This document shows, piece by piece, positions 9,956-48,842 of a stretch of DNA of 64,000 bases. Every line of letters starts with the position of its first letter. The first letter of the stretch is position 1. The stretch covers positions 62,001-126,000 of the forward strand of contig CACVBU010000734.1 in NCBI GenBank assembly GCA_902728285.1, in the 5' to 3' direction. Both the position numbers and the translations under genes were made by a program. The stretch comes from Clytia hemisphaerica (lineage: Eukaryota > Cnidaria > Hydrozoa > Leptothecata > Clytiidae). The notes beneath the pieces were generated by a model. The model made no database searches, had not been told where the DNA came from, and was given only the letters and a program-made list of their open reading frames with translations.

Positions 9956-12900
9956 ATGATACTAGTAACTCTGCTATTGATAGGAAGCCTGTTTCATCAA
10001 GGTGAGCCTGATTTTGTGTTTTGATTTGTGCAGCTCATTAATTCTTCTAGTCTATTTTTCATAGTTATACTTTTCTATAAGAACCCACTTGCTATGGGGC
10101 AATTAGCTGAATGATTTGTAAAAAATCTTAACAATGTTTTTTACTCTCTAGCTCATTGTGTTAGTTCTGTAAAACCAGCGAATGAAGCAACATCAATTAC
10201 AGTACAGAAAGGGGATGATGCTCTATTTCAATGGAACATTGTACTCGAAAATGGTGACCAAGATGTTGGTTTAAAACTTTTAAATGGAACAACAGAATTA
10301 TGGACTCAGCAAACGGGTAAAGTCAGTGATGCAGGAAAAGAACTTTTGCAAGAAAGATTAAAAGTAGAAAAATCTGTAACAAATTTAAAAGCTACAATCA
10401 GAAACGTGGATTTCAATGATTCTTCAATTGAATTGAAACTAACAGGAGCCATTTCTGACAGCGGCTTCAATAAATTAAGTGATGTTGATTCTTCTATTGC
10501 ATTGAATGTCCAAGGTAAGATGTTTTTTATGAGCCTAGAAATATTAAAAGATGTTTATTGTTTCTTGTTTCTGTGTTTTGCATGCCTGCTTCCAGAAATT
10601 AATCGAATGGGGGATAAAATCCAAAGAAAACTGCGAGCTATGACAGGAGGGTAAAGACCCACTCATGTCACTCAAGTGAGTTACGGCATGTCCGAAGTAA
10701 AAGTGAAGCAGTTCCACTCACTTTCAAAATGTCAAACATAGCTGAAAAGAAGCGCCTTATGATGTAGATCAACGCGATAGCTGTTAGAAAAATTTAAGTT
10801 AAGGCTATAAGAAGTTATATCCCAAAAACCTGTATTATGACGTCATAAACATTACGTAATATTACGTCATTAAACTAAAAATTTGAATATCTCGTGAACT
10901 AAAAGCCATATACACGTCAAATTTTAACCATAAATAGATATTGATGTAAGAAAAATTTTGAATTGAAAATTTTTTGAAAAAAATGATGACGTCATTTTTT
11001 AGAGCCAAAAATCGAAAATAGCTTAAAATCGCTGACGTCATCATTTTTCAGGAGATTTGAAAATTCTTACGTCTAGAGAATTACGATATATTTATTCTGT
11101 CAAAATTTCATATTGATATCATAAACAGTTTTTGAGTTATTCAATTTTTTAATTTAATGATGTAATGTTACGTAATGTTTATGACGTCATAATACAAGTT
11201 TTTTGGCTATAACTTCTTATAGCCTCAAGTTAAATTTTTCTAACAGCTATCACGTTGATCTACACCATAAGGCGCTTCTTTCCAGCTATAATTGACATTT
11301 TGAAAGTGAGTGGAACTGCTTCACTTTTACTTCGGACATGCCGTAACTCACTTGAGCATGCAATTCCCATTATAAGAGACAACCATCTCCTTTTCTTTGT
11401 ATATTTTGATTTTCGATTTATTTTGAGAGTTGTTTGAGAGTAATTCAAAAGCCTGTTATCTTATTTTATTTTTCTACATTTTATGGCTTCTCCGTAAATA
11501 TGGTACTGTAAAAATGTCTTATTAATGGTTATTTCAAAGTCATGAAAATTTGAAAAGCAAAGCATAGCTCTTTCCCAAATAGCTTTCATTATTGTAATTG
11601 TCAGCTTTTAAAGTTGATTATACCACAATTTTCTCGTATATTTTGAAAACGCACTCTTACCAAATTGGTAAAATATAAAATTGTACCTATAGTGTTATAA
11701 TATAGATTTCCTGGGCTGTACCAAAATTTTGGTAATTGAATTTGGTTACGGATCTTTTCCTATTATAGCAGCAGCTAATTTGGCATGAATTCTTTGTAAT
11801 TTTTTTAATTTTGATGTTAATCTTTTGCATCCAAAATCACTAAAAGCAACTTGCAAAAGGTAAGCATTATTCTTCTCAGTAAATTATACACGTTAATCAA
11901 ATTATTGAGTTTTTAAAAATGACGGATGACACATTCTGTACTCATAACTTCTGTTTTTGTTAGGTGGACCAGTCTATTGTGGTGCACAGCTTAAATCTAG
12001 TTATAATATCGGACTCAATGCCAGACGAAAATATGAATTATGCATTGAAAGTAACCCAGCACCAGAAATAACTTACAAATTTCCGAGTGATGTAGAAGAG
12101 GGTGTCAAAGGAATTGTAACAGGACCAAGTTGGGACCACCAATACACAGCAAGCTTTGAGCTTCCATCTGTAACTGCAGAAAACTGTGGCAAGGAGATGT
12201 CATACACAGTTACAACACCCAATTTACAAGGAAGTACACCTTTAACAGGAAAAGCAACTTTAACATTGACAGGTATGTATGTGATTTTTATCTCAGATTT
12301 TTCAGAGAAACTTGTTAAATAAACTATTTTTTGTGGGACCAGCAGGAGTGGTTTCCTGAAAAAAAGGAATGCATAGAAAATTGAGAGAATTCATGCGCAA
12401 AAACGAGTTTGCCATCGCCATAAACTTGAGTTTGCCATAAACTTGAACTGCAAAATTTAGAATTACAGATACCCTTCTTATATAATACAACTAATTTTAC
12501 AATTCTACTTTATAGACCTACCATTAGATGTCACCATTTCCACCTTTTCATACGAGTATGGGATCCCAACAGTAATGTGGAGAAAAATTGAAGCTGGATT
12601 ATGCAGTGACAATATTGTTTATTATATGGAAGTCAGTAACCAAACAGCCATTATATCCAAAGGACCTTTGAATGGAACCTCTCAAGTAGTAGATGAGTTA
12701 GGTAATGAACCAAAAGAAGTTGTTATGTGGGCTGAATATGACGGTCCAACTGGAAAGAAGACTGGGCAACGAGTGACATTTGGATTTACCAAGACTACAA
12801 CTACGACTACCACAACAACCACCACAGGTTAAGCATTGCTGATCTTAAACTTTCTAGCGCAATACACCTATCAACCTTGATGATTAGGGTTTGAGTTTAA

Positions 12901-15052
12901 GGAATGTCATCAAGATGTCTTTAAGGAAATCAATGCAATGACTTAAGACATTATGACGTTAATCCTACCTGGTAACTCTAACCTTACTCTTTTTTCCTGC
13001 TTTAATAAGGGAGACAGGTGAATTGAAAGTTTCTACTAATAATCTGTAATAGGCTGGATGATATGCATTATTACTAGCACCCTGTGTTTCAGTTTGTTTA
13101 GCCGTTTAGCCCTTATACAACCCTACTATTTAGAGGTTTCAGAAGATAAAATAGATTACCAAGCTTGTTTGCTTCTTTCCAGTTTCAAGTGTTTTATTAC
13201 AGTGTTTATATATAAGTTTGACAGTAGTACAAGAATTGAGTCATCATTTTTTAATGGACAAGCTGGAAAGTACAGAGGTATGTAAATTTGCTAGTTTAGT
13301 TAGCCTTAATAAAGCCTCCAATCAGCTTATTTTGAATAAATTTGATAAGGAAGATACCAGTATGAGAAGTCCTTAATGATAGTTGAGATATTCCCTAATT
13401 CATTTTATATTTGGAAATATGCTTTTGTCGTTTTTTGTTATTCTTCATTGCCCCTTTTGAATGTGTGATGTTCATTCTTCTAGTGAAACCTGCTGTGCCA
13501 GTCGCCAATGATCCTGCCAAAGACGATGACAATTTGGGACTAATTGTTGGCGGTGCTGTTGGCGGTGTAATTGTTCTTGCAGTCATTATCATCATTGTTG
13601 TGATTCTAATGCGTAGAAAGAAAAGTAAGCATGCATGTCCTTTAATTTCCTTGAACATGAACACGCATGAACATGGCTTGGATATGTTTTACAAGAGTTG
13701 ATTGAAACTTTTTTTTTAAATGTTTTTGGAGCAAGTAGCCCCTTTTGAATTTGGTGTGATATGTGAAAAAAAAATATGATAGTTTTACAAAAGAAAAGAG
13801 AAAGTTTGCTCTAGCCTTTGTTTTTTCTATTTGAATTTTCTAGCAGCAAAACACGACTCCATTGATAACTCTACTAATGTTAACGAAAATCCTAATGCTG
13901 AATTTAAACGCGGTAAGAGTTTTTACTGAACTTACTGCACACAGACAATGAAATACTAACCATACCAAATCTAACAATGCACCATTTTATGCATGTCGAC
14001 AGATTATTTTTGCACCAAAGTTTTACTATTCCACTATCACACACATTTGGGGCTTCTTGTCCCAAAATTAACTTGCATGACAATCTTTTTTTTTAATTTT
14101 TATGGCATGGGTTTGCATGAGGTATTATACAAAATAACCTGGATGTTTAACACTAATTGTCCCCTTAGTATCACAGTTTTGTATTAATTTCTTCTCTTTT
14201 CTTTATTCAGGTGCACAAAAAGATGGGTAAGAAAGAATGAGACAAATCAAAACTTATTTCCAAATTGTTCTAAGTCATCTTTTGATTCAATTTCAATTTT
14301 GTTTTGTTTTGCACATTGTTAATTTTTATTATTACTTTTAAATGGAATCTTGATAAATATTCTGTATTAAAATTTCAAACTGAATGATCTAAGAAATAAC
14401 AATTTAAAATATATTCCTTGCTTTTTCAGACATACTGAAATTCCTCTTAACCAATGGAGAGAGGTATGTTTATGTGTTGTTTTCTTTTCATAATGACACT
14501 TCAGTACTCTAAAGAAGGATATTAAGTTTAAGATTTCTGCAGGAAATTCTAACGCAGCCCCAAAAACATTATAAGCATTTCAAAGTGACAGGCACATCAG
14601 CCCAGCCCCATCCATAATTATGAACTGACTAGCTTGTAAATTTTAACTTAGCTGGATGTACATCCAGGTAGTTAAGCCTAGAAAAGATCACTTTTTTTTT
14701 CATATTCACAGCCTTTATGAACCAGAAATTATCAATCCTAAATTTATGTATTATCAACAGATAGACTAATCAAGTTGCTTCTCTTTTTCAGAATGATTAT
14801 GAGCCAGTATCAAACAACTCAACTGCCAAACGACAAGGAGAGGATGATCCTAATCACGCCATTTATTCTGAATTGGGTCCTGGTGGCCGTGTTGGGCCCA
14901 AGCCGACACCGGCCTCATCAGATTACGCTGAAGTGAAGGTAGATGATTATGGTATGCCAATTACCGGTGAAACTAGGGAACCGGCTGAAACAACACTTTA
15001 CGACCAAGTCAAGAGAAACTCTGATGATTTTGATGATGGAGTTATTGTCTAG
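9956..15052 (+). CDS. Ig-like transmembrane receptor with tandem ITIM-like tyrosine motifs (Alr-like)
   Basis: Nine exons join in phase: 9956-10001, 10152-10514, 11964-12272, 12516-12827, 13484-13624, 13844-13912, 14211-14226, 14430-14463 and 14792-15052, giving about 516 residues. Residues 1-18 form a signal peptide (hydrophobic core LLLIG). Exon 2 (residues 16-136) is a V-set-like domain without a Cys pair. Exon 3 (137-239) has three Cys. Exon 4 (240-343) has one Cys and ends in a run of about 12 Thr, a likely O-glycosylated stalk. All extracellular domain exons are phase 1-1, as in the Ig superfamily. Exon 5 holds one membrane helix (361-386) followed by RRKK. The last exon carries Y455-SEL, Y475-AEV, Y483 and Y500-DQV, and ends in VIV, a possible class II PDZ ligand. 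Seen: the order of segments and motifs. Known: Hydractinia Alr allorecognition proteins share this layout. Inferred: a recognition or adhesion receptor signalling through SH2 proteins. Exon 6 may start at 13844 or 13847 (NAGNAG acceptor). True orthology was not tested. Confidence 0.82.
10671..11356. repeat. Long-arm MITE in intron 2 of the Ig receptor
   Basis: The two arms, each over 200 bp, start CTCAAGTGAGTTACGGCATG and end with its reverse complement. They pair through GAAGCAGTTCCACT, GCGCCTTATG, GTAGATCAACG and CTATAAGAAGTTATA. The centre contains several TGACGTCA palindromes. It has no coding capacity and lies wholly inside an intron. Confidence 0.88.
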
Positions 15053-15671
15053 TTGTGAAATGTTGTTTTGATATAAAAACTTGTACTAAGTTTTGTACTT
15101 GCATTATTGGTTGGCTTCCAAACTAATGGATGGTTGTTCGCACTTTTGCATTGTTCCGTGGTCATCTCCGGGGACAAATGTCAATGGTTTGAATGAAACA
15201 TATGCACGACTTTGTGGGATCGGTTCATTGTTGTAAAAAGACTTACTGCTGTTGTTTTTCGCAGATTCTCACATCTTTCCATAAAAACATTATGAAACTT
15301 CCTTAGAAAGGTTATTCTGTTAGAAACAGCAATGTTGTGAAATGTTAGTATTAATTTTAGAGAAAAAAAGGATTTTAAGTTATTATTTTTTTTGTTCAAT
15401 TAGTTTGATATGTGGACTAAAATATTTTATATGGATTTTATGAAAACTGATGTTTATAACCAAAGCATAATTTCAAGTGTTTGAGTTCAAGGACTGACTA
15501 AGGAATCCTTTTTAACTTTTTTCAAACTATTGATTTTTTTAATTAAAATGTATAAGACTTTTCTTAATGAACAAATTTGTGACCAACAGATGACTTTTAA
15601 ATGCCTGATTTGCATTGACTTTGATTGTCAGTTTGTTGTTTTTGAATACAATATGTTTAGACACGCATTTA

Positions 15672-15721
15672 TGGTGGCCCATGAGTATCAAATTTATTTT
15701 AGTGATACTGATGGGCCACCA
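15672..15721 (+). repeat. Short near-perfect hairpin in the receptor 3' UTR
   Basis: TGGTGGCCCATGAGTATCA is followed 12 nt later by its reverse complement with a single mismatch, giving a 19-bp stem. It is GC-richer than its surroundings. It could be a regulatory RNA stem or the end of a tiny inverted-repeat element; it is short for a typical animal microRNA precursor. Confidence 0.6.
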
Positions 15722-16028
15722 TATATAACATAAACTGGTTGATAATTATTTTTTATAACGGTGTTTGTACTAAAGTGCTTCTCTTTTTTCTACTATACAT
15801 AGTTTGCACTATACTGTTTTATTTTTTAAATATTTAAAACTAAAGTTATTTTTTGTGGTACTTAGTTTTAGTTTTGAGGGAGTTGATTGTTATTCCTAAG
15901 TTTTCTTACAAAGTAACTTCTCTCGGGATTTTAAATCTCAGTCTTTCTGACATTTCGAGTTTTCTTAGAAGTTTTCCTCATCGCAAAATATTTAGTTTGA
16001 GCCTGAAATTAACTACTTATACATATAT

Positions 16029-16036
16029 GTTAAATA
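16029..16036 (+). terminator. Candidate poly(A) signal of the Ig receptor
   Basis: AATAAA occurs about 980 bp after the stop codon at 15052, in an AT-rich stretch without long ORFs. It would place the hairpin at 15672-15721 inside the 3' UTR. Only the hexamer supports this; the cleavage site is unknown. Confidence 0.3.
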
Positions 16037-16589
16037 AAACGTGTATCACTTGATCATGAATTTTTTAATCAATTATTTTTTATTATAAATGATGATTTTC
16101 ATATTTTGTTGTACAGAATTAAATTTTGTTTTTTTTTGCTTCGCCAATTTATTTTCAACACTTTTAAAATATGTTATACTGTTTATGACCATGTTTGTAA
16201 TTAATTTTGTTTTCTTCCAAAAAATGATGATTTTTTTCGTTTGTTTCTAATTCAAATATATATTTTATAATTTAACATTTAAAAATTATTTTTTCATCAA
16301 TTTGATTTACCTGACCTTCATTACAGCTCCCAAAGGTAAAGAAGTAGCATTTCATACTTCGAGACACTTTTGCAATAGAGATTTTTTATCTGTCTTTTAT
16401 CAGATCAAAAAAATTTATTCTTCAGCTTTTTTGCTATCATGGATCTGATTTCCTCAATTTTTCGTCTACCCTATTACTCTGTGAACCTTCACCTCTATTT
16501 ATATATTTTCAGTAGGCTCTAGGTAAATTTTATGTTACATTACCAGTTTGATAAGGTATGAAAAAGTTTCATTTTTATGTGTAGCTGAA

Positions 16590-17005
16590 TGAAATTCCAA
16601 GGTTGAATTTTCTAAAAAAAATCTATTCATGATATGCACCAATTGCAATGTCTTTCACGGACCCAAAAGCTTATTGGTTGAAAGTAACGTATCGACTGGT
16701 TTTACGTCACTTACAACCAATTAGCTGTTGGGTCCACGTGATGTAATATGAGAAGATGTAATGGTGCATTTCATAAATTCGAAATAATTATCACCATTTC
16801 AGTCTCAATGTTTTCTAGTACTCATGATATCCACCACTGCAATGACTTCACGAAATTATGCAATTTTTCTGTTTTTGTTCCACCCAATACGTCACTTTTT
16901 CTATTGTTTAAGTGACGTACTGGGTGGAAAATTTTAAAAGTTCTCAGAGGACACTCCAGTGGTGCATATCATGAATAGTCAGAAAACCTTAACCTTGGAA
17001 TTTTC
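16590..17005. repeat. Inverted-repeat element between the two receptor 3' modules
   Basis: ATTCATGATATGCACC (16624) pairs with GGTGCATATCATGAAT (ending 16976). Flanking AATTCCAAGGTT pairs outward with AACCTTGGAATT. An inner hairpin CCACCCAATACGTCACTT is mirrored across 16880-16928. The core is shared with the element at 45720-46050. Confidence 0.75.
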
Positions 17006-17674
17006 CTGTTTGTGTTGAAGCCAAACTTTCCATTAAATTTTTGTTGAAAAGTTTCGGCAAATTTAATTGATTGGGAATTAACTGCCCGCTTTTTAATATT
17101 CACTAATATTTTCCAAAGAAATAGCGCGTAGCTGCTTTTGATACAAGTTGAAAAACATTTGATGAAAACATTTGTTGAAAACAATTTAAATTTTGACAGG
17201 CTTCACATGTATAAACAGGGGACCAGTTATACCTATAATGAAACCTACTCAAGCCTTTATGTAGGTCTTAATACTATTTTAACTGTATTTTTACCAATGA
17301 CGAGAACAAATTACTGAAACCTGTTTATAACGTGAAGTCTTTCTTTTTTGCTCTTCTCGAAAAATCTAATAAAATGAACGAACATTTTTTTAAGTTCTAT
17401 TTCTATATTTTCCATAAAAATAGGATGATTTTAATCCAAAACTCTTTAAAACTCAAACTTTGAAGTTATAAAAATTATTTGAAAATCCTGAAATAATAAA
17501 ACTTCAGTAAAGCAGCTGCGCGCTTTTTTTTTTCCGGGAAATCATTTTTGGCGAGACAAGGAAGTGACGTCAAGATTTTCCGTCTTGTAGAAATACCATT
17601 CTTTACTGTTATCTCGATAATCCAAATAAGTTTAACTCGTTGCTATGGTAACAATTCTCTTTGCATTATTTCAG

Positions 17675-19734
17675 TCGAAACACCAAGTCCACCACCATCG
17701 GGTGATGATCCAGAATCTGGTGGATCCAATGCTGGTGCAATAGCTGGAGGAGTTATTGGTGCTATCATAGTACTTGTCATCATTGTCGGAGTTGTTTATT
17801 ATTGCAAGGCCCACAAAAGTAGGTACAAAGACTCCTATCTTAATAAAATCTTATTCAAATTTAACCTCGAATTAAGGCAAGAACATGTGAAAACAACTTG
17901 CTGGCAAAACTCCTCTCAGCTGAATAGTATTTCTGTACTTTTCAGCCACTGATTTGATTATCGATTCTCTCTCTTTACAGCATCCACCAGTCACCGATCC
18001 AGGAGTAATTACGGGTATGAATTATAACTAAGTTTTGTCAGTCATTTTGCTTATCATTTTCTCAGTTTAAAGAAGGTTTTGTGTTTTTTAACAATTGCTC
18101 TTTGGTCAGCTTCAGCAATTCCCTCAAGTTCTATCGCATAGGACTATATGAATGAGCTTAGGATTTGTTCAACCAAAGCAAAAAAAACCTGAATGGCGCG
18201 AAGCAACGAGTCGAAAGATAGGATCGGTACCGAATATTGGGAAATACACGTAGGCGGTTTTTGTATATTTTATTCTGGAACTTTTCACATAATACTTTGT
18301 TTGTTTTGTTTGTACATAGTACCCTCCCTCCATTCAGTAATAGTCACATGTGGTAAAAATATCTAAAAGTGGTTGCTGCTGATATGAGAATAAAATAATA
18401 GTCTTGTTGCATAAGGTTGGCTGCTCTTTATATATAATATAGAGAACATTTGTCCCTATCTAGTTCGATCTTTAAGGACTAAGAATTTTATTCGAATTAT
18501 AAAAATATTCTTAACATGTTCTTATTTTCACCATTTTGTGAGCAATTTTGTCCATTATTTTGAGAAATTGGGTGCTTTAGATTCCCCAAAGCCTTAAAAT
18601 GATCTTAACTCGTTCTTAACATTTCTGCTATCGATCCCTTATGTTCTTATATAGTTTGTTCTCGTAAAAAGGTGTACTATGCGGCAGGTGATCTAATGTC
18701 AACATATTTCTGTATTTAATTGCGGGTACGTCATTGGCACTGACGAAGCATTAACTTTATTTATAACAACCGATGAAAAAGCCACAAACAAAATGACGTT
18801 ATGACAAGGAAATTAGAAAGAATTTTAATAATGAGTCCTTGATTGATTGCTTTTAATTAATTACTTCCGTGCACGGTGTGATTGATTAGTTAGCTGTTTT
18901 CTAATGAATGCTATTAGCTATTAGCCTGGATACTGCAGTTAATGATAGCCTCGTTAATAAGGTCTTTGAAAGGGAAATTTATCAAGGCAAATATCCATCA
19001 GGAATAAAAACAAGCTATTACGCTTTTAGGTCCCCGTAAAGAACACTCGTGGGCAGCTAATTGCATTTGTCGTAAGGCCCATACAGTATCGGCCTTGCAA
19101 GTTATGCGTATGAGAAAGTTCCCTGGGAAATGAGAAAGTTTATGTAATCTAATCCTTTTTCTTTTCTTCAGGGCCAACGGAGGAGAATTCGAGTACACTA
19201 AGAATGAAAGACAAGATGTTGTAAGTCCTTTAAAAATGCTTGATTCCTGGTCTAGTAAAGTTATTTATAATATCAATTCTTCAAATAGATTTACCTTCCC
19301 TGCATCTTAAGCTCGTGATAATTTGTCTACTTTTATGCCTATTTTTAGACTTTTTGAAAAATTTTAAAACTTTAAAAAACCCCATGATTCTTTTTTTTTG
19401 GATCTACTGATCTCTTTCTTAAATTAATTGGGGTCTTTTATCAGGGCGCCTAGTAGTGTTTCATGGTTTCACAGTATTTTTGTTTTCCTTTTTGCAGCCT
19501 CAGTATGAGAGACCAGAAAACGTAGTTCCGCCTTCCACCCAAACTGATGGCGGTGCACAACAGCAACCACAGCGTCAAAAATATGACGAATTAGGACCAG
19601 GCGGTCGCGTTGGACCGCGTGATCATGTTGTCCATTCGAAGTATGCGGAAGTGAAACAAGAAGAAGACTATGGAGAATCGGATCAACATGAAGATGAAGA
19701 AGGAAATTTGGTCAGCGATAGTGTTATCGTATGA
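17675..19734 (+). CDS. Second stalk/transmembrane/tail exon set of the Ig receptor (alternative 3' module or partial paralogue)
   Basis: Four exons join in phase: 17675-17818, 17981-18014, 19172-19220 and 19498-19734. The first starts in phase 1, as the receptor's own membrane exon does, and encodes a Pro/Gly/Ser-rich stalk followed by a membrane helix and YYCKAHK. The last exon parallels the receptor's last exon: YDELGPGGRVGP against YSELGPGGRVGP, then SKYAEVK against SDYAEVK, an acidic stretch, and the same terminal VIV. No ATG, signal peptide or Ig domain exon is visible between 15053 and 17674. Either exon 4 of the receptor (ending at 12827, phase 1) splices to this set, or this is a duplicated gene that lost its ectodomain. 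A candidate AATAAA lies near 20214. Seen: the exons and their phase. Inferred: alternative terminal splicing. Confidence 0.7.
18440..18690. repeat. Diverged MITE with repeated GTTCTTAA motifs
   Basis: Repeated TTCTTAACATGTTCTTA-type strings and a right end GTTCTCGTAAAAAGGTGTAC resemble the family with ACACGTTTTT..AGAAC ends. The left end is degraded. It lies in the long intron before the third exon of the second tail module. Confidence 0.4.
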
Positions 19735-21068
19735 GTAACACTTCATGTGAACTCTTTCCTTAATCTCTCTTTTTCTCCATCTCTTACTTGCCTCAAAACT
19801 TTGTTTCAGTCTTTCATCTAATGTCCGTTACGTTAAAGTGATGCCAGATGCTAGGTATTGGCTGAGACGACGTATTCTGCCTATTTTGCTACGGTAAATA
19901 ATGGTAACCCTTTTCCTTGTTGGCCTTTCTCCTTCTATTGTAGCCTAGAATTTCTCTTTTGGTCCAACTGGTTCAAACACTAGCTTCCCCAGGTTCAATG
20001 AATAGTTTTGATTTGGTTCATAATATATCCGTATAATATAGTTTGTATCATATTTTTGTTTACATTATTACATGTACAAATTGTTTGTGTATGTATCAGT
20101 TTTCTAGTTCTTATTACTATCATTCTCTTTGTTTTCATGCTCATCATCGTATGACGTTCGAAAGGAAATATGTGAGACAGTCTGTACCGATGTGTATGAA
20201 TATCACTTTCAAAAATAAAACCAATAGCTGCAATAGTGACACAAGATTTTTGAAATTTTCGCAAGAGAATTCAGCTGCAATTCATATCATCTGACCAACT
20301 TTGCTTTTTTTTAATAAAAGCAGAAAAAATGAGAACAATTAAGAACACTGATGAAGAATACTGAGCCTCGTATTCCTAAATTACAAGCATAATAGTAAAA
20401 GTAGTAAAAATGGAGTATAAAGGCTTAAAACGTAAATTTTGACCCAAAAATAAGAACAGGTTAGGAACAATTTGAGGCTCCAAGTATCAGTGTAAGAACT
20501 TTAACAAGTGTACATTAACTTTTCTGTGAACTTTATTTAAGGATTTTTTTTTTTGTTGGAAAAAACGATAATTTCACCCCTTGGTTAAAAATATTGTAGA
20601 CCTTTATTAGAGAGGCGATGTGGATCTCCATTGTAGATAACGTAGTTCTTGAGGTTAAGAGATTTCGAATTTTTCTTTCTCCCATAGAATATTTTGTTTT
20701 AAATAATCTGCCATGTCTCTCAAAATTATGTTCCTTTAAGATTATTTTCATAATTTAACACCATTTTATTTTTAAATTCGCACGAAATGTTATACTTTGA
20801 TATGTAAACTTCTTCAATATAACCCCCAACCTAGTCGCTTTAGAAGTTAAAGGTTACCATTTCAAGTACTAGTATTGTAGATGTTTTTAGCATCTGATCC
20901 TTATCTTAACAGGCCACCAACATCTGGAAACTTTAGTTTTTTTAAATCAGAGTTGGATTTTTATTTTAACTCATATTGTTCCATTTTTGGGTGTTTATAT
21001 CCAGCTAAAATGATGCCCTTTTTAGATTTGAAAATACTCAAGTTTAAGAAACACAACTATTTAGTATC
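19735..21068. other. 3' flank of the receptor locus
   Basis: AT-rich and without exons I can support. It includes a candidate AATAAA near 20214 and, at about 20320-20510, AAGAAC-rich sequence resembling a decayed ACACG-family MITE. Confidence 0.4.
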
Positions 21069-21416
21069 TTAAGGGAACTTATTTTGGCGGGAACTAATTT
21101 TGGCGAGTGAGCATGATATTTAATTTTGGCGGGAACTAATTTTGGCGAGCGGCGAAAATCTTAAAAAATTTTAATTTTGGTGGGAACCAATTTTGGCGAA
21201 TGACAGCGTAAATCTGTTCTATTTTGTCTTATTTTGAGCAATTTTGATGAATTTCAGGGATTATTTAGGCAAGGAAACAAAAAAATTAATTTTGGCAGGA
21301 ACTTATTTTGGCGAGTGAGCATAATATTTAATTTTGGCGGGAACTAATTTTGGCGAATTTTGTCTAAATTCGCCAAATCCGCCAAAATTAGTTCCCGCCA
21401 AAATAAGTTCCCTTAA
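21069..21416. mobile_element. piggyBac-type MITE flanked by TTAA
   Basis: TTAA followed by GGGAACTTATTTTGGCGGGA is mirrored at the right by TCCCGCCAAAATAAGTTCCC followed by TTAA. The interior repeats TTTTGGCG(G/A)GAACTAA several times. TTAA target duplication with GGG/CCC ends is the piggyBac hallmark. No transposase is present. Confidence 0.8.
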
Positions 21417-21419
21417 GGT

Positions 21420-23049
21420 ATAATCAAAATTCTAATAAGTAAGGGTTTCCAACAGTCTCGCTGAATAGTATACTGTATATTACATACTTTTTAAAGTTCA
21501 TCAAATTAACATTTTCTCTACTAATAATGTAATCAATTTATTTGTGAACCAACTCATCAGTAAACTGTATAAAATCATAGTTAACAATATTAGTTAGGTT
21601 ATATCTTTTAGAAGAATTTTCAAATATCAGCTTCACAAGCTTCAATACTTTGTAACTATAAATGATATCATTTATTTATCCTCTTGAAAGTGGGCGTGGT
21701 CATATTAAAGTATCAATTATGATGGGTTTATTGCCTCTTTTGCACTTGAACCTTTTTTCCCTCTCTTCAGATCCCGCCAAAGTAAATGCTTAATGGTCAA
21801 TACTATACTCAGTAATTATGTATTGTCAATTTGCCATACATAAAATCTTAAATTATAGTCTTAAAAGTTAAAATACTTAGAAATCGTTGTGTTATTGTAT
21901 TTTGTCTCTATATCGTTAAGCCTCTGTATGTATATACAGCTTAATGTTAGCAGGGAAATTTCCTTTTGCCATTTATTTAAAAAATGTATCATTTATAGGA
22001 CTTAACTGTGACTTAACAAGATTAAGGAAGTCTTTGGTCTTGATCTTTAATTGGCTTTCATTCACATTGTTCGCTATGTTTAACTTTGTGATTTTGACGA
22101 TTTTGAGATTTCCTTAAGACAAACAACTTATAGTATTGTGTTGGTCTGATGTTTACCGTAAAATGCTTTCCCTAAGAACATATGAGGATTGAGTCATTCC
22201 TCACATTCAATTTTTCCAGAGGGCATTTTTTCAAAGTGGAATAACCAAAAATGATCTGCTGGTCACTTGAAGGGACCTTTAAATTTAAACAACCCAAAAA
22301 ATATTCCCTTAAAATGAATTATTTGGATTTTTAATTTGATTTCGTTCCTAAATCTTTTATTTTGAACTGACAAGCTTGAATTTTCTTGAACAAATTTGTT
22401 TTAGCACGGCGCTATATGTCAAAAGGAGATAGTACAAAAGTTCTTCGAAAGGTGATAATGGAAATTCAATTATTAAATTTCTAGTTTCTATTCTTTGCTT
22501 TTTTTTCTATATAAAAATTGTTATTTAAAATTTATGAATGAGAGTACGTGCGAAAAACAATCCTTTGAATGAAGGAAGGAAGCTAATTTAATTTTGATTT
22601 TGATTTTTCATACAATCCACGTTCACTCGACAAAATTTCTACAGCTCCTGATGAAATGTTTTCTTATTTTCTGACAGTTGAAGTCCGTTGCTATAGTGTT
22701 TACGTAACACGGCTTGTCACCAATTGTCTTTCAATTAGATATCAATCTTTATTTGAATCATTTTTCGTCATCAAAACTTGAGTGAATCACCTTTTGTTTA
22801 TAAATGCCAAAAATATTTGAGTATCTCTTTCTGTAACAAGAGCCGTATTCATTTATTTTTTTTCTCTTCTCATTTAATTAATTCGGGGGTTGAGTAAACG
22901 AGACAAAACGCGGGATTTTATGGAAACGCGTTTACTATTACTCAAAACAAACAAACGACTTCGTCAATCCCTGGTCAGCGTATCAACTCTCGAGTATTAT
23001 GGAGATAATCACATCACTTCCCTAGCAATCTTATTTGTGAAAAGCTGAA
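21420..23049. other. No gene recognised
   Basis: Long AT-rich stretch with no splice-bounded exon, tRNA or clear repeat that I can support. Confidence 0.45.
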
Positions 23050-23660
23050 TTTTTTTTAAAATACTTTTTTAATTTTATTTTTACAAATCATTGTTTTTCT
23101 GAAACACTTTTGAGATTCTTTTCTCGAATTTATTTCTGAGTTCTTTTTTTCTGAAAACTTTGTTGGAATTCTTTTTTCGAATTTATCTCTTTTTTTTCTG
23201 AAAATATTTTTTGAAATTCTTTTTCTCAAATCATTTCTGGATTTCTTTCTGAAAACTTTTTTGAGATTCTTTTTCGGATACATTTCTGAGTTTTTTTTAC
23301 TGAAAACTTTTTTGAGGTTTTTTTTTCGAATTTATTTCTCACTCTCAGTTTTTTTTCTAAAAACTTCTTGAGATTCTTTTTTAGAATTTATTTCGAATTC
23401 TTTTTTCTGAAAACTTATTTGAATTTCTTTTTTTGAATTTATTTCAACTTTTTTTCTGAATTTTATTTTAAAATTCTTTTTCTCAAATCATTTCTGAGTT
23501 TGTTTTTTCTGAAAGGATTTTTGAAATTCTTTTTCTCAAATAATTGCTGAGATTTTTTTTTAGGAAAACTTTTTTGAGATTCTTTTTTCGAATTTACTTC
23601 TAATTTTCTTTTCTGAAAACTTTTTTGGAATTCTTTTATCGAATTGATGCGCTCACCAGA
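23050..23660. repeat. Degenerate T-rich minisatellite
   Basis: About ten imperfect copies of a roughly 55-60 bp unit resembling CTGAAAACTTTTTTGAGATT plus CTTTTTTCGAATTTATTTC. A detached piece recurs at 24250-24310. The minus strand reads as Lys/Arg/Phe-rich low-complexity peptides, which I do not regard as coding. Confidence 0.75.
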
Positions 23661-23959
23661 TCTACTTTGACCAGAAAGTCTGGGTTTTAAATTTAGCCGA
23701 CCTCGTGCGTGCATATAAAATACCTCATTCTCTAGTAACGGTTCTTTCGAACATCGTCAGTCTTGGTTCCCGCCCTGCCTCCAACACCTTTCCTTCATAA
23801 CTTCATTATTTGCTAATATTGAAAATAAAATGGATGCAAGTTCCTGTTTGTTAGTCATTTTATTTATATTTGCATATTTTGAGTTTCATATAAACGAGGA
23901 GTTAATTTAGTTGATTTAATTAAAGTGTATGGTCTTCTATGTAAGTAGTAATTTAGGAG

Positions 23960-24172
23960 TTGGCTTCGCTACGCTACGCTTCTATTGAAATTTTTGAATC
24001 TTCTTAATGCCAGTGATGATGTAATCAATAAGATTATTTCCACCCGGTAACCAATCCGGTGAAATGATATGAGATTATTTCCACCCGGTAACCAATCCGG
24101 TGAATGTCATTACTGATTCCTGGCATCTATAGTGTTACTTATATGATTTTAGAAAAGCGTAAGCGGAGCCTT
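23960..24172. repeat. Inverted-repeat element with an internal tandem duplication
   Basis: GGCTTCGCTACGCTACGCTT at the left pairs imperfectly with AGCGTAAGCGGAGCC at the right. Inside, a unit of about 43 bp containing ACCCGGTAACCAATCCGG is present twice in tandem (about 24028-24108). Confidence 0.6.
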
Positions 24173-26095: not shown

Positions 26096-29000
26096 TTAAA
26101 ACAATTCATCAAGTGAATTCCCATACGAAATCGGATCTTTAAAAACGGGTGACCGGGTTTCATCTTCCGTGCCCGGATGCAATAAGTCGTCTTCAAATTT
26201 TTGGCTAGGTGTTGAAATCGGGGAAACAAGTTTTTTATCGGAATGCTTCCTCTTTTTACCCGATTTTTTATTCGTTTTGGCTCGCTTACCCAAGGCGATA
26301 AACTCTTGTTTTTGAATATTTGGACTGAATAAGCAAGGTATGCCATCAACATTTCGTGGAATGTTCGTATCCAGGGGTAACCAAGCAGCTGAGACTTGAT
26401 TAGTCATGATAAGTTCGTTCTTGTTGCTTAACAAATCTTTGTATTTCGTTTCAAATGTCGTAAACCCTTTCTCTTTTTCTTCAAATAAGAAGAAAAATGC
26501 ATTTCCAGACGCATGTTCGAGTACGTAACGTCCGGGTTGGGCAGTGCACAAAATATCACATAAATAGTTTAACTGACTGTAAAAATAGTGTGGGTTGTAT
26601 GGGCAACCTGGACCACACAACATGGCACGCGTGTAGTATTCTATCTTTCTCAGCATATCGTTACGTGGGTCAATTCGGCAACAAGCGATTTGTGAAGTGT
26701 TAGCCAATTTACTTGACCACCACATGTGACATAAATCCAAAATAGAAAAAGTTTCAAAACCAATACTTGGTTGAAGTTCAATTTTCGCATTCACTGAAAA
26801 TGTCTGTTGGTAGTTTTCTTCTTCACTTGCATCCACTGAACTTTCGATTAAGATTCGATGAGAACCACACGAAAACATGTTCACGTTGTTCGTCTGAGAA
26901 GCTTTCAAGAAATTGTTTTGGTAAAATGTTCGATTGGCTTCACGTATCGCAATGTTCCGTCGTGGAAGTGGCTCCTCGATTCGAATTACGCTTCGACCTA
27001 AGTTAAGAATGAAGTGATGATAAAATGGGTTTTCACAAATTTTAAAATTAAAACTCACGACACAAACTCTATTGGAAATATTTTATAAACAACATTCTCC
27101 TCTGGGCAACACAATGGGATTGAATATCAAAAAGGGCTACAGAAATGTGCTTCTTTTTCAGGTCATTTTTATTCGCATGTTAAAGTCTATCATTAGATTT
27201 CCTTTTCGTCAACGGACGAATCCTTATTTTTAGCGGTCTTAATTGCGTGTCCGTAGAAGTTTTAGCCAATTTTTGATTCAGCAGAGTTTAAAAACACCGC
27301 GTGATGGTCAGAAGCTGGCTCGTAGAAAGGGATGTAAACAAAAAACACGGAAATAGAAAAACCAATTCCCTCACCATACTCTTTTTTGAAAAATTTCGGA
27401 AATGAGAAAAATTAGACTTGAGAAAAGTGAAATGAGAAAAATTAGACTTGAGAAAAATGTCAAGAAAAACTTTGGAGACTTAGATATTCGAGATCATTTT
27501 TTCTAAGCTTGTCAAATATTTTTCAAAGATTTCCCACTTTAGGTTCGTTTTTCAAACCTCAGCACCACAACCGCGTTAGTTTCCAAGAAAATCGTAAACC
27601 TTCTCCCAGGATGATATGTTTCAACAAACTAACATTTCTCTTTAACTTTAATCCTTCATACCAAGATTTTTATTGTAGTCAATGTGAACAGGGATAAGCC
27701 ATTCTCGTGTCGGTATGGCCAAACTCTCCATGATAGCTAGAAGCGCATCTTGATGTGCAAACATGGGACATCGTTTCTCTTCACAAAGTTGTGTTGGATT
27801 AAACGGGCTTGGACTGAACTATTTAAAATATAGAAAAAAATTGTATTTATGATCTTAAAATTTCAAATTATGGAAAAGGATCGTAGCCATCTTTTAACAG
27901 AATTTTAATCTTATTGTTATATCCTAATTGAAGTTCTTTGCCTGCTCCATCTTATAGCCAAAAGCTAGTAAATTAAATTTGGCTTCTCAAATAAGAGGTT
28001 GAGAGTAAATTATCAGGAATTTATTCTAAGGTTTTTGCAAAAATTGAGCCATATAAAAATGTTCTTATAAAGAAGAGTGAAATGTATTTATCGAGATGAA
28101 GTTTGTCAGCAGCATGCATCGAAAACAACATTAAAGCAGACGTTTTGATGCACATCTGACAACAGTTATAAAAGAAATGGGATTTTCCAGAAAGAATTTG
28201 AATATAGGGGGTGATGAATATAATATAACCCTCCGGACAGCAGGTCTAACCCCCCCCCGGACAAGTATCAGTTGACCTCCTGGACACTCAAAATTCAAAC
28301 AGAGCAAAATTACCCTCAAACAGAGCAAAATTTACTCCCAAACAGAGCAAGTTAACCCCCCAGACAAGGTTAACTTTGTAGATATTTCACTACCCTTGTA
28401 CACTATATCCTTCACCCCCCATGTATAAACTTTTTCTGGAAGAGCCCAATCAAAATCCAATACAAGACTTCTGGAGACGACTACCTTTGGAGATTGCGGA
28501 ATTCCATTTTCCATCAACGTTGTATGCAAAGCAGGTATATGCAATCTATTGATCTTGTCCTACATAAAAATACAAGAGTTATCTGAGGAAGAAAACTTTC
28601 ATAAGAATCTAATTCGGGGGAAGGACTATGAACGAGTTCATACCAGGTGTCTTGGAAGAAAGTCCCCCTCTTTGAAGTGAATTTTCTCGAGTTCTATGAG
28701 CTTTTAAATAATCAATCTTTTTGCATTGGAAATAAGAAACAAACTTTGAGGGGTCATTTGTCAAATTTTGTCAACTAGATCAAAAGTATAAAACATTACT
28801 TTTCAGTCGAAGAGTCGAAAAATGACGAAAAATGAGGGTATTAAAGCATCATAAAGAAAGTACTTCTTCTATTACAAAACTTCAATCAGAAATGTTGCAG
28901 GCAATCTCTACTCTCAAATGATTCGAAACGATTTTGCATGAATAGACAATCGTTTGAATAACACTGCTTAAATTAAAATACATTTCGTGATGGATAAAAA

Positions 29001-32000: not shown

Positions 32001-35000
32001 ATTTTTTTTTGTTCCAGGAAATTTGTGTCATGATGGAGAACATCTGTACCAAATTTCATGACCGTAGCTCTCCTAGATCAAAAATAATCGAGGGTGGTAG
32101 ATTCTACCCCCCCCCCCTGGGGATACAAAACTCAAAAAAGCTTGGGGCTAATAGGGTTCTGTTTGCAATGAGACTTTGAGACAACAGTCCATCAAAATTT
32201 AGCAGATCTACAAAAACGGCGGTCCCGCTATAAAAGGAACATGTTTCGCACTAAAACTATTTCCTTGTTCATTTGATTTTTCCCCAAGTTAACCAGTAAT
32301 GGCATGCTTTAAGTGGCTGTGGTTTTTATTCTGTTGATTTATCCTACACCGCAACACTAGTGGTAGGTTGTCCTTGGATAAAAGGGTCATTTAGTTCGCA
32401 TTTCGCAGTTTTATGACTTTATAAGTGTTCTAGGTAGTCAAATTAAAAATCTATTTTCGTTTGGTATTGGCCCTGTACGTTCAGTTTAGTTAAATTTTCT
32501 TGGAAAAACAAGTTTGTTAGTATCGGTGTGTTGTCTCGCTGACATTTTGAGTGATAAGGCGAATGTATGAGCAATAAGCAACATCTCTAGCAAGCAGTAA
32601 CTTGGTAAGTAAGATTTGGAACTCTCTTTTTATTTGCTGGTATATGCCAAGTTTCTAATTTTGGTATTGTTTGCAGCTTTTACAGTTTTTTAGCAATTAA
32701 TTGTATTCAAATTTTACGACATAAATTGGAAAACTTTTATTAAAGAGATTTTTTAAGCGGAAACATTTTCCAAACATTCTTGGCTGCGCCACAGGGGTGC
32801 AAGCATTCTCTCTAATATATTTTAATATAGGGGATGCGTATCGTGTATAAAGATTTTCGTCCAAGAGTTACCCCCGTCTTTGTGTTTTTTTTTTAGTTTT
32901 AGAAACTTAATTAGTTTGACTAGTAAGTTTTATATGAGAGGTCTTTAAATTTAATTGAATTTTAATTAAAAATTTGAATGGCAAGAGGATAATTGAATCA
33001 TTGGATTTCTAAAACTTTTTTAAGAAAACTGAAACATGTTACCCCAAAATCGGGGGTAACTCTCGGACGGGAATTTTATACACGATACGCGTCCTCTATA
33101 TCAAAATCAATTCTGGGCATGTGCATAGCCTACTGTGACAAGGAGTGCATGTTATGGTGAGCTCAAGTACACGTTTTTTTATGAGAACAAACTATTTAAG
33201 AACATAAGGCTTCGATGGCCAAAATATTATGAACAAATTAAGAGCATTTTAAGGCTTCATGGGCTCTAAAACACCCTATTTCTCAGGAAATTGGACAAAA
33301 ATACTCACAAAAAATACATTTTTAGGCTTAAAACTCAAAAAGCTAAGAGCATTCGAAGCCTTTAAAAGTTTTTGATGTTCTTATAAAAGGAAAACGTGTA
33401 CCGTATCAAGCACCTGGGTTATTGATTTTTGTTCACTGTGTTTATTTTAGATACCAACCTACTATTCTCACTCATATGCCCCCTGATTCAAAACTCTGGA
33501 TTCCAGGTTGAAAAAATAAGGTAATGATGATATTTCAAACATAATCTAATTTTAAATGAGCCCCCCCAGCGGTTTTCGTGATGGCGTGATTGGCGTTTTT
33601 TCAAGATCGTGATTTCGTGATCGGAGGAACCAACGTAATCAACGCGATCTTGATAGAAATGAAATTAACTCATGATAGCGTGATTTGGAAATTTATTTTG
33701 CGTGATTTGAAAGGTGACTGGGGGGGGGGGGGCTCTCAAATGGTACATACCTACAATATGTTTTTATGACTTTGCAAAAATTGTTTCGCTTTTCATTGGC
33801 GATAACAATTGCTAATGCCTTCGGTAGAATGTAATTTTTTCATGATTCTATTCCTGATGTGTGCGTATTTCTTGTTATTGCTGAGAAAGAAATTCATGCT
33901 AACTTTCATTTTTGCTTCTGCAAAACATATAATGTATAATAGTTACATCCTTTTAAACCAAAATAGTCTACAATCAGTGGCAAAATATATGGCAATTTCT
34001 TGAACCCCCCCCCCAATATAAGTGTTCATGTGAGCTTTTTCTGAGCATGGCGGTAGCCTTTCCACCCATCAACATTGATTCTAGGGGGGGGGGAATCTTG
34101 CCACTGCTAGCCACAATATTTAGTCACAGATTACACTATGGTTTCGTTTTCGTTTGAGTTAGACTTACTTATGTTATGATGCGTTAAAATGACAATGGGT
34201 CATTCAATTTCATAACCATACAAGTACAGGGGGTGGATGAACTTTTCCAGGGGGTAGTCCGAGAAGAATTTCCAGGAGGTCTAAAGAAGTATTTTTTCAT
34301 TTTTCCGGGGGGGGTAAAAAGATATTTATAGACTTCCAGGGGGTAAACAACTGATATTAGTTCGTCCAACCTCACTTTAAGACATGAAAATAATTTTTTC
34401 CAAGGTGTTTTAACAAATTTTGCAATTTTCCAGGGGGTATCTACACATTTCCAAGAAATTTGTTTCGACTTGAAAAGGTTCGTCCACCCCCTCTGTATGG
34501 AAATTTTTGGAACAGTCCACTCTGAATTATTTCATCATCTCTCATCACTATTCTTATTATGTCTATTAGGTAAAGACTCGTAACCATTACTGAGTATGTC
34601 TGCTGCAAGAGGACCAGACGAAAATACTACGGCTAACAGTCATTTGTTGGGAGGCCCGTCGTACGGAACATGCTTTCAACCAGAAAACGATCCACATGCT
34701 GGTACAATCAAGACGTGGATCAAATCCTTCTGGAAAGACAACAAATTATTGGTGTTCATTTTCCTGGCAGTTGCCTTTGGCTTCTTGGTTGGTCTCTTGA
34801 TCAATGAACCAGTTCAAAAACTTGACCAACCAGCTAAAGGAAATGTTTTACTTTTTCTGGGTTTCCCCGGTGAAATTCTTATGCGCATGTTCAAAATGTT
34901 GATTCTACCCTTAATCATTACCAGCTTGATCATTGCATTCGCTGACCTTGATAAAAAATCCTCGTGGCGATTAACGAGAAGAGCTCTTGTGTATTATTTG

Positions 35001-38000
35001 TCAACAACTGGTTTTGCTATGGCGCTCGGTATCCTATTGGTCGTCACCATCAAACCTGGTAGTTATGCTGGCGATAAAGTCTTCCAACATAATGCAGACC
35101 ATCGACCAAAAGCACGTGCAATCGACACAATCTTGGATCTCTTTCGCAATGTGTTCCCTGAGAACATCGTTCAAGCATGTATTGCACAAGCAGTCACCGG
35201 AGCTGACGAAATCGCCATCAGTACCACCAATACAACCAACACCTCCTCAAATAATGCAACATTGAAGACCTTCCTAATTGCTGGTGAAACTACTTATAAA
35301 CCTGGTTCCAATATCCTTGGAATTGTCGTCTTTTCAATTGCTATCGGACTCCTTCTCGGTGCTATGGGAACGCAAGCTCATCTCCTAATTGAATTGACCA
35401 GAATTTTAAACTTCCTAACTATGAAGCTTGTCAAGTTCACCATGTGGTATGCACCCATTGGAATTTGGAGTTTGGTTACTAATAAGTTCGCTTCTATAAG
35501 TGATATCTCCGGCATCTTTCGAGGGCTGGCTTATTACATGGCTACTGTCATTTCCGGTTTGATTCTACACTCCTTGGTGGTTCTGCCGTTGACCTATTTT
35601 GCATGGACAAGACGGAATCCGTTCACCTTTATCAAAGGAACATTCAAAGCGCTCTTGACCGCGTTTGGAACGAGCTCCAGCTCAGCTACCATGCCTGTAA
35701 CCTTTAAATGCCTTGAAGATAAGAACGGAATTGATAAAAGAGTTACCAGACTCGTTCTACCAATCGGAACCACGATCAATATGGATGGTACAGCGCTCTT
35801 TGAAGCTGTCGCTGCAATCTTCATCGCTCAATCAATAGGTAAGAGCTTAAGCGTTGGCCAATATATTGCTATTGGTTTAACAGCTACAATAGCCTCTATC
35901 AGTGCTTGTGCAGTACCACAATATGATTGGATACCCGTATTGATGGTTCTTCAAGCCGCTGATCTACCTGAAGAATCGTTAACTCTTATCATTCCAGTGG
36001 ATTGGTTTTTGGATCGTCTCGTAACCGTAGTGAATGTGCTTGGTGATTGTATTGGTGCCGGCATCGTAGCTCATCTTTCTGAAGGCGAGCTTCCTCAAAT
36101 CCATATTCCTCAAACCCATGCTCCTTTGGAATTATCTGAAAGAAGTTATGACAATGCATGCGATAATCAAATGGATTTGGATGGCTCGAAAACAAGAAAC
36201 GATCATCGAATGGATCGAAATCGAAATCCAAGCACCACCAGCATCGCCAGTACCACCAGCGTTTAAAACCAGGAAACTTTTAACAACATGGGTTAAAATG
36301 CTTTTAAAACCACAGTGCCTACTAAATCAAATAATGGCTACGAGTATGATTCTAGACACTTTTTCTTCAGCGCTATTAGTTACCAAGATAAGAGCTAACC
36401 TTGAAGGAAAAGGTTTTGGCAAAATTCAATAATATAGGTGACAAAAAAGTCTTTCGGAATCTTTGGACAATGGGGCAGAGAGCTACATTCCTGGTCAATA
36501 TCTCGGGGTAGATATGGAACAGTGCAATTTTACCTTTTGGTGTAGAATTTTTTATTTTTCTGACGTTAAGTCTTTGCTAATGACTTATTGATGGTTAAAC
36601 AATCAGATCGATATGAAATCACTTGCAATGGGTGTACAAAGTTGCAATTTATCTTAGATTTTCTGAGAGGTTTTGGGAATTCTTTTAGGGGTTTTTGAGA
36701 GTTTTTGACATTTTATAAGATTTTTTTTAGGATTAAATTTTGAATTTTTTTTAAATCTTATGGGACAATTTTTATGGATTTTCTGAGAGATTTTGGGAAT
36801 TCTTTTAGGGTTTTTTGAGAATTTTTGAGATTTTATATGATTTTTTTTTAGGATTAAATTTGGAATATTTTTTAGATTTTATGGGACAATTTTTTTTGGT
36901 TTTCTGAGAGGTTTTGGGAATTCTTTTAGGGGTTTTTGAGAATTTTTGAGATTTTATAAGATTTTTTTTTAGGATTAAATTTGGAATATTTTTTAGATTT
37001 TATGGGACAATTTTTTTGGGATTTTCTGAGAGGTTTTGGGAATTCTTTTAGGGGTTTTTGAGAATTTTTGAGATTTTATAGGTTTTTTTTTAGGATCAAA
37101 TTTGGTATTTTTTTTAGATTTTATGGGACAATTTTTTTGGATTTTCAGAGAGGTTGTGGGAATTCTTTTAGGGATGTTTTTGAGAATTTTTGAGATTTTA
37201 TAGGTTTTATAGGCATTATGATTTTAGAGAAAAATCATCTAAGAGTTTCTAAAATTTCATTGCTCTCAAATTCCTTGATTAAACTTCTTTCTATAGTGTA
37301 ATGTGGTGAAAACTGTACAAACCTTTTTTTCGGCCAACAATCCTTTAATCCTCTCCATATTATTGTTCTAAAAAGAACCATGAAAGTCGATATCAGTAAG
37401 AAGTCTTACGTGTTTTGTTAAGTTACATAATTCCTGCCATTATGATAGGTAGTACTTCACAAAAAAACCAGGAATATTCATTCAGTATCACGATGAGTTA
37501 CGCTTTGATGATTTTCTGAAAAAAGAAGTCTTTCACAAGAATTCTGACTCAAAATCGATATTTTCCCTACTACAAGAGGTTCAAAATTTTAAAAGTGACG
37601 TCAAAAAGTCGAATGTTTGGAGCACGAAAACAGGGCTCAAAACATTCGAAAAAGTCGCAAAGTGAAATAGACGTTACTGCGTAGAAAAAAAGCCGTGACG
37701 TCTAGTATACATAGGCTACCATTATAGAAGCAAACGTTCGAATCGGTGAGGTATTCCCTGACGTAAATTGAATTTTTGGTGTCTTGAAAATAGTTTAAAG
37801 CCTATAATCACGATTCTCGGTTAAAAAATTGGACAATACCATACATGTGCTACGTGTATGATGAATTAATACGGGTCCCGGATTTTTTATTACAATGCGT
37901 CGATAAACAAGAATCAAACATAATTTACTCATAAAAGTGGTTTTAAACTATTCAGGAGTAAAGAATAATTATCGATGATTTAAAGGTTCTATTTTCACAC

Positions 38001-47555: not shown

Positions 47556-48723
47556 CTATGAATGAAGTTTCACAACATTTCGGTGTTTATCAAAATTGCT
47601 CATCAAACTTCTACCATTCCATGAATTCAATAAATAATACCACCACATCAAGTCCTCGATTTCTTTTTCATCCAATTTAACTAAAAAATGTAACTTATCA
47701 ACTGAATATGCTTTCTTTGTTAATCGAATCATAAAAGGCTTGCCAACGACCACTGCTTGACAACAATAGTATAAAGAACCAATCAGAGATAATAATGAGC
47801 GTTTTGTACCAGACTTTTTCTGAACCCATTGATCTAAAAGTTGTCGGATTTTATCCAATTTTTCTTCTGGAATTCGCATCTCCATCTTTTCAGTATCAAT
47901 CTCCATGCCAAGAAAGACGAGTCTGGTTGTTGGGTATATTGTTTTTCGATGCTCAATAGGAACACCTAGTTCTTGGCAAAGTCGTAAAGAGTTCTCCAAA
48001 CCTTTTTGGCAATCATTAGACTGTGATAGTCCTAGTACAAGAAAATCATCTAAAGAGTGTTGCATATGTTTGACAGGTCCTTTCTGCAGGAATATCCATT
48101 CTAAAACATCGGAGAATCTAGTAAATATTCTTGGTGCACTCCTAGCTCCGAATGGTAATGCTAGATCAACAAAGTAATAATCTTTCCATTTGATGACAAC
48201 TAAATTACGTTCATCCTCTTGTAATGGAATCATCCTATATGCTCGTTGAATATCGAATTTTGCCAACAAACATCCTTTACCGAGAGCTAGAATCTTTTTA
48301 ACTGCGGCAGTAAGTCCAGTATAGGAAACAGTCGAATTTTCTTTAGATATTCCATCGTTAACACTTTCGCCAAGGGGAAAAGACAGATCAGTGATCATTC
48401 GGAATTTACCATCTGATTTCGGTATCACACCAAACCGGTTAATTTGACACTGATCATAAGGGGGATCTTTATATGGTCCCAACATGGTTCCTTGTTTCAA
48501 TTCCATCTCCAGGTAGTCATCAATGATACCAGGTTGGATATGAGCTGATAGTAAGTTCTTGCTGGCACTTGACAACGGTGTAGAATCAAAATCTAAAGAG
48601 AATCCATTTTGAATGCCGTCTAGTACCCAGTCTCTATCTTGCATTGGACAGTCTTCAAGATAGTGTTTCCATACTGGTAGATTTAGTGAAGTGACATCAA
48701 TTGGTTTCGGTTGCTGAGTACCT
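47556..48723 (-). mobile_element. DIRS-like retrotransposon fragment: reverse transcriptase with start of RNase H
   Basis: An open frame of 362 codons from ATG 48644 continues in frame upstream to about 48720 with RT-like sequence (LPVWKHYLEDCP). RT landmarks in order: RFGVIPKSDGKFRMITDLS, KFDIQRAYRMIPL with the first catalytic Asp, LPFGARSAPRIFT, SLDDFLVLG with the Asp pair, and FLGMEID. The tail WWYYLLNSWNGRS is typical of the RT/RNase H junction of DIRS and related tyrosine-recombinase retrotransposons. The usual Tyr of YxDD is Ser. No gag, tyrosine recombinase or terminal repeats are seen nearby, so it looks truncated, although the frame is intact. An acceptor-like TTCTAG lies just upstream at about 48723, so use as an exon of a host gene is possible but unproven. 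Confidence 0.8.
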
Positions 48724-48842
48724 AGAATATAAAAGCTATCATAATTTTTTTTCTTATGTTAATTATTAAAAAGTTCTTCCTGTGCTAGCTGTGTTATCAG
48801 TTGACAATCTTAGCAATTTTAAATTCTCTTCAAAGCACCAAA

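Follow-up and report, generated by a model that had tools for sequence, protein, structure and literature searches.

The oligomorphic fester co-receptor (FcoR) loci of Botryllus schlosseri are reported to exchange an immunoreceptor tyrosine-based inhibitory motif (ITIM) and a hemITAM (from immunoreceptor tyrosine-based activation motif, ITAM) by alternative splicing (PMC12065747). Alr candidates have been reported with ITAM/ITIM motifs (Huene 2022, Rodriguez-Valbuena 2022, as cited in PMC12065747). IgM and IgD are reported to derive from a single long transcript by processing (PMC4730250), and splicing of the single CEACAM1 gene is reported to give tails with or without an ITIM (PMC4113144). 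Here we analysed a stretch of 64,000 nucleotides (nt) from the hydrozoan Clytia hemisphaerica (GenBank assembly GCA_902728285.1, contig CACVBU010000734.1, positions 62,001 to 126,000 of the forward strand; hereafter the window), in which a type I receptor gene with its own membrane and tail exons (cassette A) is followed 2.6 kb downstream by a second membrane and tail set (cassette B). The locus is probably, at a rough probability of 0.6, a single receptor gene in which two 3' terminal cassettes serve as alternatives.

The likeness to FcoR, which are immunoglobulin (Ig)-superfamily receptors of a histocompatibility locus, would lie in tyrosine motifs changed by splicing; whereas ITIM and hemITAM are exchanged there, the two Clytia tails have one ITIM-like pair in common and are set apart by their extra tyrosines. 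Hydractinia Alr genes are alike in type I architecture, tandem domains, tyrosine-motif tails and an AT-rich animal genome, but they form a clustered complex, whereas a single receptor was found in this window, and we liken the two by architecture, not by sequence. With vertebrate IgM/IgD the locus has in common one upstream recognition unit (variable-diversity-joining, VDJ, in the vertebrate case) and two downstream exon sets (C-mu and C-delta), but here membrane and tail exons alone would alternate, there is no gene rearrangement and the receptor is unrelated. CEACAM1 differs in that an exon is skipped inside one tail, with no duplicated membrane-plus-tail set. Tandem tail cassettes in Alr genes are described in none of the titles and abstract openings listed, and we make no claim that they are unreported.

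The receptor gene occupies 9956-15052 on the + strand and comprises one leader exon, three exons of domain size, one membrane exon and four exons for the tail; cassette B (17675-19734, + strand) has one membrane exon and three tail exons, so that the cassettes count five and four exons, respectively. The exons and the gap between the cassettes are as follows.

9956-10001, + strand: exon 1, start codon and predicted signal peptide MILVTLLLIGSLFHQ; donor in phase 1
10152-10514, + strand: exon 2, ectodomain D1, 363 nt, phase 1-1; no Pfam match
11964-12272, + strand: exon 3, ectodomain D2, 309 nt, phase 1-1; no Pfam match; all-beta model of low confidence
12516-12827, + strand: exon 4, ectodomain D3 and Thr run, 312 nt, phase 1-1; donor CAG/GTTAAG
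13484-13624, + strand: cassette A exon 1, short linker, then membrane span; phase 1-1
13844-13912, + strand: cassette A exon 2, 69 nt, symmetric 1-1; no equivalent in cassette B
14211-14226, + strand: cassette A exon 3, micro-exon of 16 nt, phase 1-2
14430-14463, + strand: cassette A exon 4, phase 2-0
14792-15052, + strand: cassette A last exon, YEPV, YSELGPGGRVGP, SSDYAEV, TTLYDQV and C-terminal VIV; stop codon ends at 15052
15053-17674, no strand: inter-cassette gap of 2622 nt, with a palindromic element at 16592-17003
17675-17818, + strand: cassette B exon 1, Pro/Gly/Ser linker, then membrane span; phase 1-1
17981-18014, + strand: cassette B exon 2, phase 1-2
19172-19220, + strand: cassette B exon 3, phase 2-0
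19498-19734, + strand: cassette B last exon, YDELGPGGRVGP, HSKYAEV, acidic stretch and C-terminal VIV; stop codon ends at 19734

The signal peptide and the membrane spans were assigned by hydrophobicity only. All 12 distinct introns (eight in the model with cassette A and four more in that with cassette B) are GT-AG, the longest within the ectodomain and cassette A being 1449 nt. Spliced to cassette A, the ectodomain gave an open model of 516 amino acids (aa); spliced from 12827 to 17675, it gave an open model of 497 aa with cassette B (stop excluded in both), and the cassette B frame is intact over 154 aa. The phase plan of cassette A is 1-1, 1-1, 1-2, 2-0, 0-stop, and that of cassette B is identical minus the second 1-1 exon. 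The acceptor of cassette A exon 2 is a tandem NAGNAG (13844-13850), and use of 13844 or 13847 would keep or lose one residue. These results agree with the original prediction, made from the sequence alone, in its coordinates and phases (exon 4, 12516-12827, ending in phase 1; membrane exons at 13484 and 17675 starting in phase 1; stops ending at 15052 and 19734), in a second membrane and tail set 2.6 kb downstream without an ectodomain, and in the order YxELGPGGRVGP, S-x-Y-AEV, acidic stretch, VIV, which is correct for both tails. Its contrast between the two stalks was borne out for the linkers, which are cassette-specific, if of similar length (VKPAVPVANDPAKDDDN in A, VETPSPPPSGDDPESGGSN in B), but not for the Thr run, which is encoded in exon 4 and would be common to both forms.

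Cassettes A and B are homologous by architecture and by sequence. Their last exons matched each other by tblastn within the window at an expect value (E) of ~1e-7, the local alignment of the two tails scored 100, whereas none of 2000 shuffles exceeded 63, and 33 columns of the tail alignment are invariant. Over the ten-codon core ELGPGGRVGP, which was picked for its conservation, A and B show 8.0 synonymous differences at 9.0 synonymous sites and none at 21.0 non-synonymous sites, which argues that this core has been under long purifying selection in both copies. The 25-codon gapless block around the core has 16 of 25 residues identical; random placement of the same 34 nucleotide changes, a null that takes no account of mutation bias, left 6.8 identical on average and never as many as 16 in 20000 runs. 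When neutral substitution was simulated (substitutions only, no insertions or deletions; 2000 runs per rate), a rate of 0.02 substitutions per site left the cassette B frame and its 14 splice-dinucleotide bases intact in 49% of runs, a rate of 0.05 in 17% and a rate of 0.1 in 3.5%; from 0.2 upwards no run kept them intact. As these exons and dinucleotides are intact, any functional loss in cassette B, its ectodomain included, would date from a recent span of less than about 0.1 substitutions per site. The homology and the past constraint on the tail core, like the anatomy and the open frames, are shown by the sequence.

We searched the gap and the window for a second ectodomain or leader. The translated frame of cassette B contains no methionine, and 5' of 17675 there is no in-frame ATG before a stop at 17497. 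A filter for leader-like exons with a phase-1 donor let none through in the gap; it did recover the true leader, and on 13 overlapping control stretches it returned none in 12 and two in one. No credible domain exon was found in the gap either: two open stretches of phase 1-1 within the 200-420 nt range, overlapping each other, had summed splice scores of -6.2 and -7.4, compared with 24.5, 21.9 and 9.0 for the three true domain exons, and such open stretches occur in 5 of the 13 control stretches. Relics of D1-D3 were not detected in the gap by tblastn, the sole match being 16 residues on the minus strand, to D1, at E 6.1. A splice-and-frame scan of both strands of the whole window, using phase 1-1 exons and score thresholds, listed two membrane-type exons (13484-13624 and 17675-17818), 19 domain-exon candidates and no second ectodomain set. 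On the + strand these candidates were D1, D2, D3, a shortened D2, two extensions of the cassette B membrane exon (one via an alternative acceptor at 17591), five inside a transporter open reading frame (ORF) and one opposite a reverse-transcriptase ORF; on the - strand, six lay in the reverse-transcriptase ORF and one, unassigned, at 39759-40085. Poly(A) signals were also considered as support and rejected: AATAAA or ATTAAA occurs six times in the gap, twice in the 1066 nt past cassette B, eight times in 9956-15052 and three times in 17675-19734, and in AT-rich DNA with these signals everywhere they are therefore uninformative.

The intact cassette B, the long selection on its core, its lack of methionine and a gap without a leader or credible ectodomain exon together make a shared ectodomain the best reading, and exon 4 is the nearest ectodomain source for cassette B (12827 to 17675). 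One precursor transcript would hold the leader, D1, D2 and D3. Joining of the exon 4 donor at 12827 to the cassette A membrane exon at 13484 would give a transcript ending past the A stop; were transcription to read on, 12827 would be joined to the cassette B membrane exon at 17675, with the whole of A skipped. The products would be two type I receptors with ectodomain and Thr stalk in common and with different membrane spans and tails. Six donors of the ectodomain and cassette A part could join 17675 in frame, and by the phase table in-frame crossovers are likewise possible at cassette B exons 2, 3 and 4. The proposal of one ectodomain joined to either tail thus stands as the best reading of the anatomy, with an open 12827-17675 junction; transcript joining, phosphorylation and signalling are steps that we infer from the sequence.

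Several observations weigh against a shared ectodomain. The phase match of exon 4 with both membrane exons, on which the original prediction had leaned, is real but does not discriminate, because the leader donor is in phase 1 and D1, D2, D3 and both membrane exons are all 1-1; any relative of this receptor gene is expected to agree in phase, and we dropped the match as non-specific. The 12827-17675 intron would measure 4847 nt, whereas no intron of the ectodomain and cassette A exceeds 1449 nt. Under a small splice model, donor 12827 is the weakest of 11, with 1324 of 3213 background GTs scoring as well, while acceptor 17675, which was kept out of the training set, comes 11th among the 226 AGs in 12828-17675 and is equalled or exceeded by 117 of 3313 window AGs. 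These models were built on 10-12 sites each and trained on these very exons, and the scans would miss any domain divided between two exons. At -6.2, the better of the two open stretches in the gap lies slightly above the best control (-8.7), though far below the true exons. The core was chosen for its conservation, and the differences per site over the 25-codon block (0.82 synonymous, 0.33 non-synonymous) indicate loose constraint outside the motifs. Moreover, the constraint test reports history, and a cassette B whose ectodomain was recently lost would look alike. The weak donor would serve cassette A too; in a leave-one-out comparison, acceptors 13484 and 17675 are the first and fourth weakest of 12, with 322 and 92 of 3301 background AGs scoring as high.

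Such a loss is what the most serious alternative, which we consider unlikely, proposes: cassette B would be what is left of an adjacent duplicate, now dying, whose leader and Ig exons disappeared recently and whose intact tail is carry-over. Fragments are common at such loci, 44 Hydractinia reference Alr-like gene models being taken as pseudogenes (PMC11067881), and a rabbit IgD remnant lying 3' of IgM is described as non-functional with largely intact membrane exons (PMC5568218); both precedents tell against a shared ectodomain. Past constraint in both copies is also compatible with long service of cassette B in a full gene. However, no D1-D3 relic was found in the gap, where the 16-residue match was the only one by tblastn, and the intact four exons and splice dinucleotides would confine the loss to the recent span given above.

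Headless membrane adaptors with tyrosine motifs exist (DAP12, Fc receptor gamma), and hydrozoans have trans-splicing. Both count for a reading in which cassette B is a separate transcript, with a missed leader exon or a spliced leader trans-spliced to 17675, and encodes a headless adaptor with a tyrosine tail. The gap of 2622 nt leaves room for this, but we judge it improbable, given that no leader-like exon passed the filter, that cassette B offers neither a methionine nor an upstream in-frame ATG before a stop, and that its tail has no ITAM pattern. Slighter still is the prospect of an assembly artefact that fused two divergent haplotypes or paralogues and lost the second ectodomain; the Hydractinia reference is reported to keep a second divergent Alr1 allele on another scaffold (PMC11067881), but the present window contains no Ns, and the gap has a GC content of 0.294, like that of 20001-24000 (0.296; 0.30-0.39 across the window in 4-kb steps).

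If the two cassettes do share one ectodomain, their tyrosine motifs bear on the expected output. Both tails keep a pair of tyrosines exactly 20 residues apart (112/132 in A, 105/125 in B), made up of YxEL and S-x-Y-A-E-V. The second of these fits the ITIM pattern [S/I/V/L]xYxx[I/L/V] as SDYAEV in A and SKYAEV in B, which are candidate sites given so short a pattern. YEPV and TLYDQV, the latter matching the immunoreceptor tyrosine-based switch motif (ITSM) pattern, are present only in tail A, and the remaining tyrosines of cassette B do not fit YxxPhi, in line with the predicted difference in extra tyrosines. An ITAM was looked for and rejected, there being no YxxL/I pair at 6-12 spacing in either tail. 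The C-terminal VIV of both tails resembles a class II PDZ ligand. For scale, PD-1 is reported to have its ITIM at Y223 and its ITSM at Y248 (PMC7078208). Cassette A would be a fuller SH2-docking form and cassette B a reduced one. Since the same tyrosine pair is in both tails and two YxxV sites are extra in A, graded rather than opposite output would be expected, and not an activating and inhibitory pair; the predicted "different output" would hold to the extent of the extra docking tyrosines in A.

No Pfam family matched D1, D2 or D3 at E ≤ 10 (HMMER filters on), and no PDB sequence did so at E 10. Single-sequence AlphaFold models had a predicted local distance difference test (pLDDT) of 39 for D1 and 56 for D2, the latter an all-beta model of eight strands at low confidence; a fold search with D2 against PDB gave no match at E ≤ 0.001, the best, at 0.099, having a title that names no Ig domain (best 50 of 219 matches). 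At E ≤ 1 only the two membrane-exon frames matched Pfam (11 families for A, 5 for B, all under curated cut-offs; best TM_ErbB1, E 2.2e-5, for A), which we take to reflect membrane-span resemblance. Domain exons of 363, 309 and 312 nt, all 1-1, have the symmetric phase and the ~100-120 codons of Ig-type exons, a pattern typical of them and not unique. Because Alr domains are reported to be unusual Ig domains, the misses in Pfam and PDB count only weakly against an Ig fold. With its signal peptide, tandem domains, single membrane span and tyrosine-motif tail, the receptor has the Alr-type architecture, and on architecture, tail motifs and general knowledge of the family we regard the cnidarian Alr-like family as a lead only. 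A search for tail relatives in viral and prokaryotic genome contigs gave 60 and 63 pattern matches, none of them confirmed. The phase 1-1 scan found one receptor and no cluster in the 64-kb window, which covers a single haplotype; Alr-like genes outside the allorecognition complex have been reported (PMC13119343, PMC11876637).

Read-through of the exon 4 donor (12820-12836) would add one Gly before an in-frame TAA, and intron 4 has AATAAA at 13308 and 13335. A soluble receptor form made in this way is conceivable, and chance explains the in-frame stop equally well. Intron 2 contains an inverted repeat (10671-11356) with arms of 230 nt that are 92% complementary, resembling a fold-back transposon. 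The palindromic element in the gap (16592-17003) is like a miniature inverted-repeat transposable element, with ends AAATTCCAAGGT / ACCTTGGAATTT and inner arms CTATTCATGATATGCACC / GGTGCATATCATGAATAG. Other features of the window are listed below.

26096-27082, - strand: NARG2_C (Pfam)
34584-36266, + strand: sodium:dicarboxylate symporter (Pfam), a long uninterrupted ORF
39643-40110, - strand: open frame of 155 aa, no Pfam match at E 0.01
47556-48758, - strand: reverse transcriptase (Pfam)
52159-52710, - strand: DUF2039 (Pfam)
53460-54092, - strand: SET domain (Pfam)
59842-59914, - strand: transfer RNA, sole Rfam match at gathering score

A bolder picture, which we find rather doubtful, is that of a hydrozoan-type self-recognition receptor with an IgM/IgD-style tail switch, offering a tail with four YxxPhi motifs (A) or one with two (B), in-frame crossovers at four levels (the membrane exon and the three tail exons) and a possible soluble form via the weak exon 4 donor. 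If such a switch were real, the meaning of a self match could be changed by tissue or stage while the definition of self stayed unchanged. The constrained ELGPGGRVGP core beside the tyrosine pair makes this tail module of interest. If both tails are used, the identity and the consequence of recognition would be separable at one locus, and this would open a direct way to study how a self/non-self match is converted into different outcomes by an invertebrate receptor.

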